A stretch of 11,462 bases of DNA from contig JABIQT010000841.1 of assembly GCA_018667995.1 (NCBI GenBank), forward strand, positions 1 to 11,462. The letters run 5' to 3'. The notes beneath the pieces are model-generated. The model did no database searches. It was not told where the DNA came from and was given only the letters and a program-made list of their open reading frames with translations. Source of the DNA: Candidatus Latescibacterota bacterium. GTDB lineage: Bacteria; JAAXHH01; JABIQT01. Below are positions 1 through 8,180 of the stretch, piece after piece; the stretch's first letter is position 1, and each line of letters begins with the position of its first letter. The translations under genes and the position numbers were made by a program.

Positions 1-1115
1 CGAGAATACCCGGCTTTGAATAGAAGGTCATCGGTGTCTCCACCCAGAGATGGGGGTGGTACGTCGGACCCGGTCGCAAGATTTTCAAATCGAAACGGCG
101 GGGCGACCTGTCTGCTCGATGATCCGTCGGTGGCATCCAGGTCTGAGAATGTGCCCCGGTGTTTGAATTGCGGGTCGTTCTGGATCTCTTTGACATCATA
201 TACGGGGCCACAGGGGACATCATGGCTCTGGAGCAGTTTGTCCCAATATGATCGGGTCTCAGTCTTGAAAATCGACGTCAACTTCTCCTTAATCTCGGCA
301 GAGCGAATGGATCGCTCATGTGTCGTGAGGTCCTGCCATTCTTGAATGTCCAGGGCGTCGCACATATTTCCCCAGAAGTGAGATTCGTAGACGATACCAA
401 TGCTGAGATAGAGATCGTCTGAAGTCTTGAACACATCATAGTGGGGGAGACCCGAGAGGAGTGGCCGATCCGGGGCCTCTTCCATGTCATGGGCTCTGGC
501 TATTTCGGGGGCCATCCAAGAGACCACGGCGTCTGTCATGGAAAGATCGATATACTGCCCCAAACCAGAAGAATCCCGGTGTCGGAGCGCAGCCAGGACC
601 GCCATTGCGGCGTACATGCCGGATGCCATATCCGAAATTAGGACAGGTGGCGTCGATGGGCGGTCATTCGCAATCTCTGCCTGACCCATGAGTCCACCGA
701 TGGAGATGTAGTTCACGTCATGGCCAGCGCGTCCGCGGTACGGCCCCGTCTGTCCGAATCCTGAAATAGAGCAGTAGACTATATCCGGCTTTATCCCTTT
801 TGCCATGTCATAATCCGCTCCGAGTCTCTGGACCACGCCCGGTCTGAATCCCTCCATCAATACGTCTGCCGTCTTTAGCAGCCTCTGGAGGATTTCTTTA
901 CCTCTGTCGTTTTTCAGATTCAGTGTTATGCTTCGTTTGCCCCGATTCACGCTGGCAAACATGGATGGAAACGCCCGCAGAGGGTCTCCGGAGAGTGACT
1001 CCACCTTAATCACATGTGCGCCGAGGTCAGCCAGATGCATGGTGCAGAAGGGCCCGGGGATCTGAGTGGTCAGATCGATGATACTGATACCAGAAAGTGG
1101 AAGGGGGATGGTCAT
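1..1115 (-). CDS. Family III CoA-transferase / alpha-methylacyl-CoA racemase-like protein (CaiB/BaiF), 3' end outside window
   Basis: My translation gives 371 codons without a stop before the window edge, so only the C-terminal tail is missing (family members are usually about 380-400 residues). The start MTIPLPLSGISIIDLTTQIPG matches the family opening, followed by LADLGAHVIKVE (28-39), NRGKRSITLNL (57-67), the FRPG motif (90-93) and SISGFGQTGPY (116-126). GHDVNY (131-136) and SDMASG (161-166) place His132 and Asp162 thirty residues apart, the spacing of the His/Asp pair in alpha-methylacyl-CoA racemase. Asp162 is also the position of the acyl-carrying Asp of family III transferases. The product therefore either moves CoA between carboxylic acids or epimerises a 2-methylacyl-CoA; sequence alone does not decide. 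An in-frame TAG lies directly before the ATG, so no earlier start exists. It is the last visible gene of the minus-strand operon, 91 bp after the acyl-CoA synthetase fragment. Confidence 0.93.
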   Translation of the reverse strand, partial: MTIPLPLSGISIIDLTTQIPGPFCTMHLADLGAHVIKVESLSGDPLRAFPSMFASVNRGKRSITLNLKNDRGKEILQRLLKTADVLMEGFRPGVVQRLGADYDMAKGIKPDIVYCSISGFGQTGPYRGRAGHDVNYISIGGLMGQAEIANDRPSTPPVLISDMASGMYAAMAVLAALRHRDSSGLGQYIDLSMTDAVVSWMAPEIARAHDMEEAPDRPLLSGLPHYDVFKTSDDLYLSIGIVYESHFWGNMCDALDIQEWQDLTTHERSIRSAEIKEKLTSIFKTETRSYWDKLLQSHDVPCGPVYDVKEIQNDPQFKHRGTFSDLDATDGSSSRQVAPPFRFENLATGSDVPPPSLGGDTDDLLFKAGYS

Positions 1116-1206: not shown

Positions 1207-1902
1207 CTAAAGCAATCGCTCTGTACCGCTTCCGAGGTGTTTGGCATTTTCCTCACGCAGCGTGAGCATGAGTCCTTGTCTCCAGGCATCCAGTAGCTGG
1301 ATATCGAACTTGGAATCTCCGTGGGTATACATCGCCGGCTGGCCGTCAGGGGAATCCGGAAGAATGAACAAACCCGCTTCGTGAGGCAACGTGCGGCAAG
1401 TTTCAAAGTCGACAGAAGACATGGATACTCTTCTATCATAGTCGATCCATCCGTCTCGCTCCCATCCAATCAGAATGCGATTCTTTATCTGAGGCATTTC
1501 GCTGGCCAGTGTTTCAATCAGATCAGCATGCTCTGTTCCGACGACAACGGATTCCGCATCGGAGTGCTGTATTTGTTCGCGAACACTTTCGTCCGTTGAG
1601 GCTTCTGAAGACAGGACCGCGACGATACCAGCTCTCATACAACCCAAAATGATTTCCCACCACTCCAAACATAATGGGAGCATGATCAGTACTCGATCGC
1701 CTCGGCTTATGCCCTCTCGGGTCAACATATTGGCCACTTTGCACGAGCGTATGCTGAAGTCGCGGAAAGTTACTCTGTCCACGTCTCCTTGATCGTCGAA
1801 CCACTCCAGAGCCACCATTCCAGGTGTGCTGGCGTGAAGATCGATGACGTCGGTCGCGAAGTTCGCTACAGATTCTGATCTGGCCACGAGCACTCCTGTC
1901 AA
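1207..1902 (-). CDS. Truncated AMP-forming acyl-CoA synthetase homologue (N-terminal part of adenylating domain only)
   Basis: The 231-residue product resembles the first 40% or so of acyl-CoA/acetyl-CoA synthetases, especially the medium-chain group: ALEWFDDQGDVDRVTFRDF (31-49), a KVANML segment (55-60), GDRVLIMLPLCLEWW (68-82), ILGCMRAGIVAV (85-96), then DGWIDYD (150-156). Where the ATP-binding P-loop (consensus TSGTTGxPK) should be, residues 181-190 read LPDSPDGQPA. The protein ends about 40 residues later, so all later adenylation motifs and the C-terminal lid domain are absent. Full-length relatives have about 500-550 residues. Catalysis is therefore unlikely; a binding, regulatory or decaying role is possible. 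The listed start is a TTG whose last two bases belong to the SDR stop (TTGA overlap). A GTG at 1885-1887 with GGAG five nt upstream is an equally good start and would remove five residues. The other frames downstream do not restore the motif, so a simple frameshift does not explain it. Confidence 0.75.
   Translation of the reverse strand: MTGVLVARSESVANFATDVIDLHASTPGMVALEWFDDQGDVDRVTFRDFSIRSCKVANMLTREGISRGDRVLIMLPLCLEWWEIILGCMRAGIVAVLSSEASTDESVREQIQHSDAESVVVGTEHADLIETLASEMPQIKNRILIGWERDGWIDYDRRVSMSSVDFETCRTLPHEAGLFILPDSPDGQPAMYTHGDSKFDIQLLDAWRQGLMLTLREENAKHLGSGTERLL
1893..1896 (-). promoter_or_regulatory. Ribosome binding site for the alternative GTG start of the acyl-CoA synthetase fragment
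   Basis: GGAG on the minus strand lies five nt before the GTG at 1885-1887. It lies inside the longer TTG-initiated reading, so either the TTG start is used by coupling to the SDR stop, or this site directs initiation at the GTG. I slightly favour the GTG. Confidence 0.45.
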
Positions 1903-2627
1903 TCCATCAGCAGTCCACCATTTACGTCGATCAGCTCGCCCGTAATGTGCCGGGAATCATCGGAGGCGAGGAAGAGAGCACAGGCAGCAACATCGGCTGG
2001 TTGTCCCTTTACCCCCAATGGGATGGCATCGACGAAAGACTGAGGGTGATTCGCTGTTAACTGGGTATCTATGATCCCTGGCGCGATGGAATTAGCGCGT
2101 ACGCCGAAGGCCGCGAGTTCTCGTGCGAGACATTTAGTGAGGCAGTCGATTCCCGCCTTTGACACCGAGTATGGTGCTCCGGCTACAATGCCTCCGGTTT
2201 TGCCTGCGATGGACGCCATATTAATGATGACTCCGCTCTTCTGTTCTTTCATGTGGGGCATCGCCGCTTTTGCGAGCAGAAAAGGGCCTTTTAGCTGGAT
2301 ATCGAGTACCTTGTCCCACTCCTCGATGGTGCAATCTTCAACCGATCGAAACAAGGCTATACCGGCATTGTTGACCAGAATGTCAACACTGCCGAAATGC
2401 GCCTTCGTTTCCGAGACAGCGCGTTCAATATCGGATTGGTTCGAGATATCGGCCTTAATGGCGATGGCATCTCCGGGTGATAGCGCGTGGACCACCTCTT
2501 CTGCACTGGACTGATCCAGGTCCACGACCGCGATTCCTGCTCCCTCGGCTGCGAAGGCCTCACAGATCGCTCTGCCAATTCCTCTGCCACCGCCGGTCAC
2601 GATTGCCGATCTTCCTTTGAGTTTCAT
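1899..2627 (-). CDS. SDR-family NAD(P)-dependent oxidoreductase
   Basis: A 242-residue classical short-chain dehydrogenase, the normal length for the family. The cofactor motif TGGGRGIG is at 11-18, NNAG at 86-89, the catalytic Ser in NMASIAG (Ser139), and YSVSK gives Tyr153 and Lys157. PGII (about 183-186) and the C-terminal GELIDVNGG segment are also typical. Asp36 at the end of strand beta-2 (VVDLD) points to NAD(H) rather than NADP(H). The Asn of the Asn-Ser-Tyr-Lys tetrad, normally in a DVNLKG-type helix, is Gln111 here (DIQLKG). The enzyme should interconvert an alcohol and a ketone in the cytoplasm; the substrate is unknown, with a sugar, sugar acid or hydroxyacyl compound fitting the neighbours. 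Its ATG overlaps the nucleoside hydrolase stop by 4 nt (ATGA) and its own stop overlaps the next gene, so it is probably translationally coupled on both sides. Confidence 0.95.
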   Translation of the reverse strand: MKLKGRSAIVTGGGRGIGRAICEAFAAEGAGIAVVDLDQSSAEEVVHALSPGDAIAIKADISNQSDIERAVSETKAHFGSVDILVNNAGIALFRSVEDCTIEEWDKVLDIQLKGPFLLAKAAMPHMKEQKSGVIINMASIAGKTGGIVAGAPYSVSKAGIDCLTKCLARELAAFGVRANSIAPGIIDTQLTANHPQSFVDAIPLGVKGQPADVAACALFLASDDSRHITGELIDVNGGLLMD

Positions 2628-3592
2628 TTGAGTACCCGTTCGTTAAACAGTGAAATGAACGTGTCCGCTTTCACCTGCGTACACACTTTTCCGTTTGGTC
2701 CTTCATCCGGCATGAATGCCGGCCTCAAGTCCGCCACCGTCATGCCGGAGGTCAAATCCCCCGCGGTCTCGACATTGATTTTTGCGTCCACCATTGTGAC
2801 AAGTTCGGGCTGGAATGCCACGGCGACAGCCAGGGCATCGTGAATGAAGCAGCCATCCACATTTCGCCGTTGGCGATGGAAATCGACGTAGTGGTCCGTG
2901 CAATCCTTTACGAATCGTGCCACCTTGCCGCCCTGCTGTGCGTAAAGATCGATATCTGGTGCGCTCAATACAGCTTGCATTGTAACGTCCAGAGGTACGA
3001 AGACCATGGGGATACCCGCACCGCAAACCACCTGCGCGGCGTGTGGATCCGCGAATATGTTGAATTCCGCGACCGGGCTCACATTTCCGTAGACCTGGAA
3101 GGCTCCTCCCATGACAATGAGCTGCTTGAGCTTTTGCATCCGAAAGGGATTGTTGATAACTGCTCGGGCCACGTTTGTTAGGGGGCCCACTGCGATAAGA
3201 GTGATCTCACCCGGATGGCGCTCTATTATCTCGAGGATAAGATCGACAGCGTGTGTGGGGCTCAGGCGATTCTGGGGTGCAGAATATCTGGGCTGGCCGT
3301 CCGCCAAAAGGAGCTTCGACACTCCGCCGAGTCCGTCATCGGCATGAACGTTGTCTGCCAGAGTTACCGCAGATGCCAGAGGGCCATCTTCTCCTCTGGC
3401 GACGGCTGGTATGGATTCAAGCTCAAGCAACTCGAGCGTCATCAGGATATTCCTGACACAGTGATCGACGTGGACATTCCCACTGACCGCGGTAATGGCC
3501 TCAACGGTAAGCTCGGGCGAGCGCATGGCCAGAAGAATAGCCAGGGCGTCGTCGACACCAGTATCTGTATCAAGTATGATTCGCATGCTCAT
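2624..3592 (-). CDS. Nucleoside hydrolase (inosine-uridine preferring family)
   Basis: This 322-residue protein has the family's usual length and motif set. It hydrolyses the N-glycosidic bond of a ribonucleoside to give free base and ribose. The N-terminal Ca2+-binding motif DTDTGVDDA (8-16) supplies Asp10, Asp14 and Asp15, in the same numbering as the Crithidia enzyme. Asn39 (SGN) matches the ribose-binding Asn. The C-terminal pair His251-Asp252 in CFIHDALAV corresponds to the His-Asp that contacts base and metal. Supporting motifs are ALLTNVARA-like VGPLTNVARA (about 135-144), VMGGAF and FNIFADPHAA. Two Met codons lie six nt apart at the start; I keep the first, which is 6 nt after the oxidoreductase stop. 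Base specificity cannot be read from sequence, and distant members act on other glycosides. The flanking oxidoreductases suggest the released sugar, or the glycoside itself, is oxidised. Confidence 0.95.
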   Translation of the reverse strand: MSMRIILDTDTGVDDALAILLAMRSPELTVEAITAVSGNVHVDHCVRNILMTLELLELESIPAVARGEDGPLASAVTLADNVHADDGLGGVSKLLLADGQPRYSAPQNRLSPTHAVDLILEIIERHPGEITLIAVGPLTNVARAVINNPFRMQKLKQLIVMGGAFQVYGNVSPVAEFNIFADPHAAQVVCGAGIPMVFVPLDVTMQAVLSAPDIDLYAQQGGKVARFVKDCTDHYVDFHRQRRNVDGCFIHDALAVAVAFQPELVTMVDAKINVETAGDLTSGMTVADLRPAFMPDEGPNGKVCTQVKADTFISLFNERVLK

Positions 3593-3598
3593 GTACTG

Positions 3599-4738
3599 TC
3601 AGATTCCCAGAGATTGGTTCAGTTCGCGTTGATAGGTGTCTACTTTTCCCGAGACCACATCCTGCACTTTTATGGGGATGCCCCCAGCAGCTGTGGACTC
3701 GTACACTGCATAGCATATGGCCTGGGCCTCCAAGCCCACCATGCCATCAATTTCGGGGCGGCCGCCGGTCTTTATACATTCGAAGAACTCCAGCTGTTCT
3801 AATGTTACAGAATTGGTGATTCCATGGGGAAAAAGATCATCCTGCCGGTAGGTGGCTATGAGTGTTTCACGGTCAACCGGTTCTTCACCATCGCGATTGA
3901 GCACACCATCATTGATGCTTCCCTCGCTGCCGTAAATGACGGTATGTCCGAATCCGGCACCATGCATGGCCCAGCTCTCGGACCATTGACCAAGGACACC
4001 GTTCGAGAATCTGACGATTGCGAGGCCGGTGTCATCTGCCGTGGGTTCAATTGTGGCATGCTCGCCAGTCGTGATTTTACCGCTACGGGAAGACTCAAAT
4101 GTGGCCGTCGCCGCCGTGATTTCTTCCACACTACCAAGCCAGTAAATAAACAGGTCGGCATCATGTACACCGTTGTCCAACATGGGGCCGCCACCCACGT
4201 CTTCTTTCATATGTCGCCAGGGCGTGCCACAGAAGATGCCGCTACCAACTCCGCCGCCCTGTCTGAAAATCATATATGGTCGGCCGATGGCTCCGGCATC
4301 CAGTGCCGCCTTTATGGCCCGCTGCTCTTCGCCGCGCCGGTACTGTTCGGCCACTGCGAGAATGACACCACTACGATCGGCGGCATCAATCATGGTCTTG
4401 CCGGCACGTATGGTGATAGCAAGAGGTTTCTCCGTCATTACATGACAGCCCGCTTCAAGACAGGGAACGGACAGGACATGATGTAGGCGGTGGTCTGTGG
4501 CGATAATCACGGCATCGGGCCGACTGTCCTTAAGCATGAGCCTGAAGTCCCGGTAGGACGTCGGTTGCATCCCCATTTCCTTACGGGCGGTTTTCGCAAA
4601 CTCGGCGGTCCTACTATCCACGGTGTCACATACTGATGTGAGCTGGAAATCGTAGTCATGCTTGTTCAATTCGATAAGGCCGTTCAGATGGGCGCGAGCC
4701 ATACCACCACATCCGATCATGGCAATAGAAAGGGGCAT
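3599..4738 (-). CDS. Gfo/Idh/MocA-family NAD(P)-dependent oxidoreductase
   Basis: The 379-residue protein has an N-terminal Rossmann fold (GCGGMARAH, 9-17), the EKP signature (TEKPLAI, 102-108, with Lys104 the expected catalytic Lys), and a C-terminal alpha/beta domain in which GGPMLDNGVHDAD (183-195) supplies the Asp188 and His192 typical of sugar and inositol dehydrogenases. The family oxidises a ring or chain hydroxyl of sugars, cyclitols or their glycosides with NAD(P), often at C3 or C1. It is cytoplasmic, with no signal peptide. ATG at 4738 fits the fold start; a weak AGGA lies 12 nt upstream. The stop is 6 nt before the nucleoside hydrolase start, so the two are cotranscribed and probably act on linked substrates. 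Which of the two acts first is open. Confidence 0.94.
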   Translation of the reverse strand: MPLSIAMIGCGGMARAHLNGLIELNKHDYDFQLTSVCDTVDSRTAEFAKTARKEMGMQPTSYRDFRLMLKDSRPDAVIIATDHRLHHVLSVPCLEAGCHVMTEKPLAITIRAGKTMIDAADRSGVILAVAEQYRRGEEQRAIKAALDAGAIGRPYMIFRQGGGVGSGIFCGTPWRHMKEDVGGGPMLDNGVHDADLFIYWLGSVEEITAATATFESSRSGKITTGEHATIEPTADDTGLAIVRFSNGVLGQWSESWAMHGAGFGHTVIYGSEGSINDGVLNRDGEEPVDRETLIATYRQDDLFPHGITNSVTLEQLEFFECIKTGGRPEIDGMVGLEAQAICYAVYESTAAGGIPIKVQDVVSGKVDTYQRELNQSLGI

Positions 4739-6935: not shown

Positions 6936-8180
6936 TTACTCCTCTTCCTTCATTTGGCCTGAAATTTGGAGAGCCCTTGCGCTAACACCGAGCACTCCGA
7001 GAAAGCCCTCAGAATCCTTGTGATCGAATTCGCCGATCCCCTCCATGGAGGCATTCGACTCGGAATATAGCGAATGCGCGACATTCAGCGCCTCTTGGAA
7101 AGCGATGTTTCCTTTGTACAGTGAGACCACGATCTCGCCGTCAGCCAGTCTGCTGAAGGTGTCAACGGACGCTCTCAGCGCCTGTGTTGCAGGATCGAAC
7201 CAGTACCCTTGATAAATCTGTTCGGCAATGGACTCCGATGCCTGATTGAATACGCGTCGTGCGCGCCTATCGAGAATCAGTTGGAGGAGAAACTCGTAAC
7301 ATCCCGCGAGCAGTGACATGCCGGGAGATTCATATACTCCGCGACTCTTGATACCGACGAATCGATTTTCAACGGCATGAATGCCGATTCCGATGCCATT
7401 TCTGCCACCGATCCTGTTTGCCGTCATGATCGCTTCCAGCGGACCGACCGCCGATCCGTTTATCTCGACAGGGATTCCTTGAGAAAATCGAACTCGGAAC
7501 GTTTCGGCTTGATCCGGCGCTTGCTGCGGGTGAACGCCCATCCCTGGTGTAATAAATCCCGATGGCGTAGAGAGGGATTCCAGATTCCCGGCTTCGTGGG
7601 TGAGCCCCAGTATATTGGCATCGGTGCTATATGGTTTCTCGTGGGATGCCTGTACGGGCAGATCGTGTTTGCCGCAGAAATCGATCATCTCTGTACGGCC
7701 CGGAAAAGCATCTAGAAATGTCTGATCACGCCACGGTGCGTAAACACTGATGTCTGGATCCAGCATGTTGGCGACTAATTGAAAACGGACCTGGTCATTG
7801 CCACGTCCTGTGGCGCCATGGGAGAAGATATCTATTCCCTCTTTCTGCATGCTGGGCAACAGCGCTTTGACGGTGATATGTCGTGCGATGCCCGTCGTGT
7901 TCCAGTATCCACCCTCGTAAGCGGCCATACATTGAATAACCTGAAGACCGGCCCGGGCCACGTCCTCCCTGGCATCAATAATATGGGCGTCTTTGGCGCC
8001 ACATTTCATCATCTTGTCGGCTATATAGTCAACGCGCTCTTCGTCAGGCTGGCCAAGGTCTGCTGTAAAACAGACCACATCCACACCGCGGTCTGCTAAC
8101 CAGCGTGTCATCGTACAGCTGTCGAGTCCCCCCGACACTGCGGCACCGACCGTCTTGCCACGTAATTGGTCTACATTCAT
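6936..8180 (-). CDS. argG: Argininosuccinate synthase
   Basis: A 414-residue member of the ATP-pyrophosphatase family that joins citrulline and aspartate to make argininosuccinate, using ATP. The P-loop is SGGLDS (16-21). LGQPDEE (42-48), YWNTTGIAR (92-100), HGATGRGNDQVRF (121-133), EKPYSTDAN (181-189) and NRIGGRNG (255-262) cover the nucleotide, citrulline and aspartate sites. Some motifs resemble the E. coli-type enzyme (LGQPDEE, YSTDxN), others the shorter common type (HGATGxGNDQVRF), so it may belong to an intermediate subgroup. Its length is nearer the shorter type. GGGAG five nt before the ATG supports the start. No argH, argF or other arginine gene is nearby, and the only partner is a VOC protein; arginine biosynthesis is the default role but not proven. 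Confidence 0.9.
   Translation of the reverse strand: MNVDQLRGKTVGAAVSGGLDSCTMTRWLADRGVDVVCFTADLGQPDEERVDYIADKMMKCGAKDAHIIDAREDVARAGLQVIQCMAAYEGGYWNTTGIARHITVKALLPSMQKEGIDIFSHGATGRGNDQVRFQLVANMLDPDISVYAPWRDQTFLDAFPGRTEMIDFCGKHDLPVQASHEKPYSTDANILGLTHEAGNLESLSTPSGFITPGMGVHPQQAPDQAETFRVRFSQGIPVEINGSAVGPLEAIMTANRIGGRNGIGIGIHAVENRFVGIKSRGVYESPGMSLLAGCYEFLLQLILDRRARRVFNQASESIAEQIYQGYWFDPATQALRASVDTFSRLADGEIVVSLYKGNIAFQEALNVAHSLYSESNASMEGIGEFDHKDSEGFLGVLGVSARALQISGQMKEEE
6939..6944 (-). promoter_or_regulatory. Ribosome binding site of the VOC gene inside the end of argG
   Basis: GAGGAG is encoded by the final Glu codons of the synthase, and lies six nt before the VOC ATG with the TAA stop in between. 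This implies translational coupling of the two proteins. Confidence 0.75.

Follow-up and report, generated by a model that had tools for sequence, protein, structure and literature searches.

A stand-alone N-terminal fragment of an acyl-CoA synthetase, without its P-loop, kept under purifying selection in one bacterial phylum

The window analysed here, an 11,462-nucleotide stretch of DNA from a Candidatus Latescibacterota bacterium, carries an open frame that resembles the N-terminus of an acyl-CoA synthetase (ACS) and ends soon after the place where the ATP-binding P-loop should be. Does such a frame encode a protein with a function of its own, or is it the remnant of a decaying gene? We compared the frame, its neighbours and its relatives across the phylum to distinguish between these possibilities. 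The features referred to below are:

3..1115, minus strand: family III CoA-transferase, reaching the contig edge; the downstream neighbour in families f1 and f2 and in genus g3, not in genome G011
1207..1902, minus strand: stand-alone ACS N-terminal fragment, TTG start, 231 aa
1270..1323, minus strand: tail, residues 194-211 (HGDSKFDIQLLDAWRQGL), conserved among the short forms
1333..1362, minus strand: LPDSPDGQPA, residues 181-190, at the P-loop site where TSGTTGxPK is expected
1414..1473, minus strand: core motif, residues 144-163 (in the window, LIGWERDGWIDYDRRVSMSS), the most constrained part
1885..1897, minus strand: probable true start, AGGAG (1897-1893), a 5-nt spacer and GTG (1887-1885), which fits the orthologue starts
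1899..2627, minus strand: SDR oxidoreductase, directly upstream of every stand-alone copy
2624..3592, minus strand: nucleoside hydrolase (NH), in f1, f2 and the checked f3 genomes
3599..4738, minus strand: Gfo/Idh/MocA oxidoreductase, also in the f2 operon with a full-length ACS

The frame and its start

The frame at 1207-1902 runs for 231 unbroken codons from a TTG, and codon statistics preferred it over the other two frames. Its product matched the Pfam AMP-binding profile PF00501 (E 1.7e-21) at positions 7-135 of 384 only, and its closest match among solved structures was the human medium-chain synthetase ACSM2A (2wd9; residues 13-211, E 2.7e-25); homology to the Methanosarcina enzyme Macs (3etc) covered residues 13-168. 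The earlier note's reading of an intact frame for an ACS N-terminal piece thus holds, since the frame is open and the PF00501 and ACSM2A matches are N-terminal only. These matches place the fragment in the ANL superfamily and alongside the medium-chain ACSs, which include NCBIfam NF047394 (MbcS), the family of the full-length enzyme found in family f2 (below). Unlike those enzymes, the fragment is devoid of the P-loop, the acyl pocket and the C-terminal domain. An ANL protein without those parts cannot adenylate or form a thioester.

Where ACSM2A has FTSGTSGLPK and the phylum's full-length relative has FTSGTTGPPK, the fragment reads LPDSPDGQPA, and the comparison confirms the replacement that had been proposed by eye. 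Only 91 nt separate its stop codon from the ATG of the CoA-transferase; therefore the remainder of the enzyme is not encoded downstream, as the earlier note had also held. A frameshift from sequencing or assembly was considered and rejected, as the short form is complete in 12 separate assemblies. AlphaFold2, run on the fragment as a single sequence, returned an uninformative model (mean pLDDT 40.5).

The start codon bears on the claim that the fragment overlaps the SDR stop by 4 nt. That overlap exists for the TTG start only, and it is doubtful because an AGGAG-GTG arrangement lies at 1887 and the orthologues, which begin with MTxSVSNF, start at about the residue matching this GTG. The GTG is probably the true start, giving a protein of 226 aa that would begin about a dozen nucleotides past the SDR stop.

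Distribution and origin of the short form

Our sample comprised 16 genomes of the phylum, all from one order, within a total of 384 genomes searched. Stand-alone copies were present in 14 of the 16. Twelve are complete: the window copy, ten from genus g3 that are each exactly 215 aa long, and the 210-aa copy of G011 (genus g4). The other two (G008 and G015) are cut by contig ends. Apart from those, no copy contains an internal stop, and in 14/14 the SDR gene is the immediate upstream neighbour. In the two interrupted copies (loci L034 and L036, respectively) the contig ends inside the gene, at about residues 132-148, and a different contig carries the rest.

The remaining two genomes differ from these. 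In G001 (family f2), a 528-aa full-length ACS with an intact TSGTTGPPK lies between NH and the CoA-transferase, without an SDR; because it shares 62% identity with a full-length ACS of a genome outside the phylum, we regard it as a normal medium-chain-type synthetase. In G013 the fragment gene is absent from the whole genome, and the SDR is followed directly by the CoA-transferase. The earlier note had taken full-length relatives with a normal P-loop at this locus as the mark of a decaying pseudogene; G001 supplies one such relative, but 14 of the 16 genomes keep the short form.

An alignment search of the 384 genomes placed all matches outside the phylum in full-length frames of 534-644 aa, save one frameshifted gene. 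A 217-aa short frame outside the phylum (G377) was rejected as a second case, since it resolved into two neighbouring pieces of a full-length ACS that are out of frame with each other. A scan of genome contigs returned one distant relative, and a scan of viral contigs for relatives returned none. Among the ten plasmid matches listed, identity was about 27-32%, and those with an annotation were named as acetate--CoA ligase, AMP-binding protein or acyl-CoA synthetase.

When the N-terminal region was used to build a tree, all 12 complete short forms fell into one clade (support 100/100), and the f2 enzyme was the nearest full-length sequence to it, split from other ACSs with 99/97 support. The short form probably arose by one old truncation of an f2-like gene, early in the phylum, although the number of events comes mainly from this tree, in which long branches meet. 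With the short form kept in 14 genomes and the full-length ACS in G001, we take the full-length gene to be ancestral. Unrooted trees of the neighbouring genes grouped f1 with f2, and a CoA-transferase tree rooted on paralogues did not separate f1-first from f2-first branching; should the root lie between f1+f2 and f3, a second truncation would be needed.

The same comparison bears on the CoA-transferase, for which the earlier note had proposed the fragment as a non-catalytic subunit or regulator. As a dedicated subunit, the fragment would stabilise that enzyme or deliver its substrate. The CoA-transferase does adjoin the fragment in f1 and g3 and the full-length ACS in f2, and its ATG overlaps the stop of the preceding gene as ATGA in g3 and f2, an overlap that in g3 makes it the first candidate to consider; in the window, however, the 91-nt gap lies between them. 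G011, a 99% complete genome, has the order SDR-fragment-cupin with no orthologous CoA-transferase, only a 36%-identity paralogue common to other genomes, and G013 has SDR-CoA-transferase without the fragment. The two genes thus do not co-occur as an obligate subunit and its enzyme should, nor do homologues always lie between an SDR and a family III CoA-transferase, as G011 shows. The CoA-transferase is not an obligate partner of the fragment, and with G011 and G013 each keeping one gene without the other, we consider the dedicated-subunit proposal weakened and unlikely.

Within this one operon the two losses are reciprocal and clean, affecting the fragment in G013 (L048:11764-13008) and the CoA-transferase in G011 (L029:6608-7336). 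A cupin gene marks the position, following the fragment in G011 and the CoA-transferase in G013.

Selection and conserved residues

Across five spread species the fragment had a dN/dS of 0.293 (95% interval 0.218-0.379, codon bootstrap), and among ten g3 species the median was 0.29 by NG86 and 0.16 by YN00; these figures describe g3 and the spread species. Other genes of the operon had values of 0.07-0.17 in the five-species set and 0.08-0.18 in the g3 set. The fragment is thus its fastest-evolving gene, which is consistent with a relaxed role, although it is clearly constrained. Over residues 144-163, dN/dS was 0.018-0.027 with normal dS; because dS in this motif is not lowered, the constraint acts on the protein and not on the RNA. 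In a neutral simulation, a lineage of comparable divergence stayed stop-free with a probability of about 0.013 (star-tree approximation). Of the 67 positions that do not vary among the other copies, the window copy retains 50, similar to G011 (50/63).

These values address the suspicion that the frame is a remnant caught early in decay, for which a dN/dS near 1 had been named as the sign. A slowly decaying relic of a full-length ACS, still open by chance, would fit the full-length gene with its intact P-loop in the G001 operon, the fast rate, and the loss in G013. It would not be expected to leave ten orthologues of identical length with no stops, a dN/dS of about 0.3 that is significantly below 1 and a 20-residue core at about 0.02, nor a window copy that retains as much as G011 does. 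Neither the relaxed constraint nor the frame disruptions of a decaying pseudogene were found; the selection analysis already contradicts the relic explanation, which we judge distinctly improbable. What the earlier note had called new to its author, a stable stand-alone half-domain, is what 14 of 16 genomes and purifying selection support, here as a non-catalytic ACS N-terminal piece that has been retained for a long time.

We asked which residues had been lost and which kept. The P-loop pattern [YF]TSGTTGxPK is absent from 12/12 complete short forms, and its site differs by group: LPDSPDGQPA in the window, a YDQG-type sequence in g3 and MPEAPQTQP in G011. The invariant proline of the A2 region is replaced by leucine (L97) in 12/12, several residues of the following segment are also gone, and motifs A5-A10 and the C-terminal domain with its catalytic lysine are missing, the chains ending at 210-231 aa. 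Residues common to the short forms and nearly all ACSs are N14, D18, D21, A24, A31, S53, A57, L60, G64, P76, W81, W152 and H194. Seven others (S114, W147, D154, D156, R157, R158 and V159) are invariant in the short forms and occur in the f2 enzyme too, whereas the consensus of other ACSs differs at these positions. The core motif reads GWERxGWxDYDRRVSLA across copies, and a DNA pattern for WERxGWxD[YF]DRR had a single occurrence in each of 14 genomes of this phylum and nowhere else among the 384 searched.

The short forms also have a characteristic tail, HGDxxxxxxxLDAWR, in which H194, G195, L204, D205 and R208 are invariant. Between the window copy and those of G011 and L024, identity was 56-61% in residues 194-211 and 0-31% in residues 164-193.

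This pattern of losses bears on three further explanations. The subdomain could be a small-molecule sensor or carrier, with an acyl group or nucleotide as its ligand and the pathway as the target of its signal. The operon handles carboxylic acid and CoA chemistry, and H194, beside the old P-loop, is retained; we nevertheless give this proposal little credence, as the P-loop is gone and the residues shown by mutagenesis to bind CoA in the related enzyme MacsMa (Tyr460, Arg490, Tyr525 and Tyr527) lie far beyond the truncation point (PMC10455477). Alternatively, a C-terminal half encoded elsewhere might complement the fragment in trans. There is a precedent in corallorazine biosynthesis, where an active adenylation domain is encoded on two ORFs: a second gene encodes the smaller adenylation subdomain of Crz1/Crz2, and the two pieces together have activity (PMC11342130). 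Like Crz1/Crz2, the fragment is an ANL superfamily member that does not fill one ORF; unlike them, its second piece is missing and the break falls at the P-loop, itself lost. No stand-alone C-terminal half was found in G002, G003 or G007 at E 1e-3, and in G000 and G011 the only candidates were short frames interrupted by the end of a contig (G000) or containing a stop within a gene that would otherwise span the enzyme (G011). We regard a split enzyme as highly improbable. Finally, a mere translational spacer or RNA element between the SDR and CoA-transferase genes, suggested by the tight coupling in g3, has a negligible chance and is already contradicted by the constraint on non-synonymous sites, the unreduced dS of the core motif and the presence of the fragment without the CoA-transferase in G011.

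The G000 candidate, from the window's own genome, is a 207-aa frame (G000:C264) that was rejected as a free C-terminal piece because it runs off its 3.2-kb contig. At G011:C70:8656-10140 lies another ACS gene, whose identity to the f2 enzyme is about 30%; its internal TAA may mark a pseudogene or a sequencing error.

A putative pseudo-synthetase and its candidate partners

We propose that the fragment is probably a non-catalytic pseudo-synthetase kept by selection, which would serve as a scaffold or allosteric partner through the surface around GWERxGWxDYDRRVSLA. The P-loop of a medium-chain-type ACS, together with the whole chain beyond it, would have been lost, probably in a single event early in the phylum; what remained would still fold as the N-terminal subdomain, and the surface around the motif would contact enzymes of the operon. 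Because the motif surface is already present in the full-length f2 enzyme, the non-catalytic role was probably at first an additional function of an active enzyme, and later outlived catalysis. It is plausible that an ACS N-terminal subdomain has thereby become an independent selected protein whose moonlighting function, on a surface taken from its active ancestor, has outlived the enzyme. Against this proposal, G013 lost the fragment and kept the rest of the operon; therefore the fragment is dispensable in at least one lineage.

As partners for such a pseudo-synthetase, the SDR and NH appear better candidates than the CoA-transferase, since the SDR immediately precedes the short form in every case and NH is in every genome checked. 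The f2 enzyme already has the motif but no adjoining SDR, so NH or an unlinked protein may also be the partner.

Many protein families include pseudoenzymes (reviewed in PMC10211241). The fragment resembles them in being without the catalytic motifs of its family yet kept by selection (dN/dS 0.29; core 0.02), and differs in having lost about 60% of the chain instead of the catalytic residues alone. We found no stand-alone N-terminal ACS subdomain in the open-access papers searched, which is weak evidence of novelty as most subscription papers fell outside this scope. In annotation, frames of truncated ACSs readily pass for pseudogenes or fragments. Here, selection has kept one in two families after the loss of catalysis, with a full-length, ancestor-like enzyme in the same operon of a third. 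The short forms and the f2 enzyme thus make a before-and-after pair for non-catalytic roles of ACSs, with one short motif to test.

The wider neighbourhood is that of a putatively catabolic operon. The window's genes are, in order of transcription, argininosuccinate synthase, a VOC-like protein (named by inspection only), an M14 peptidase, Gfo/Idh, NH, SDR, the fragment and the CoA-transferase; argininosuccinate synthase (6936-8180, minus strand) is syntenic with the operon across f1 and f3. In G002, the region 3' of the CoA-transferase (L024:10042-16148) encodes a cupin, an aldo/keto reductase, two Amidohydro_2 proteins, a GDSL esterase and a Gfo/Idh protein, a content that suggests a cluster for the catabolism of sugar acids or lactones. 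Frames matching these in size occur at other g3 loci.
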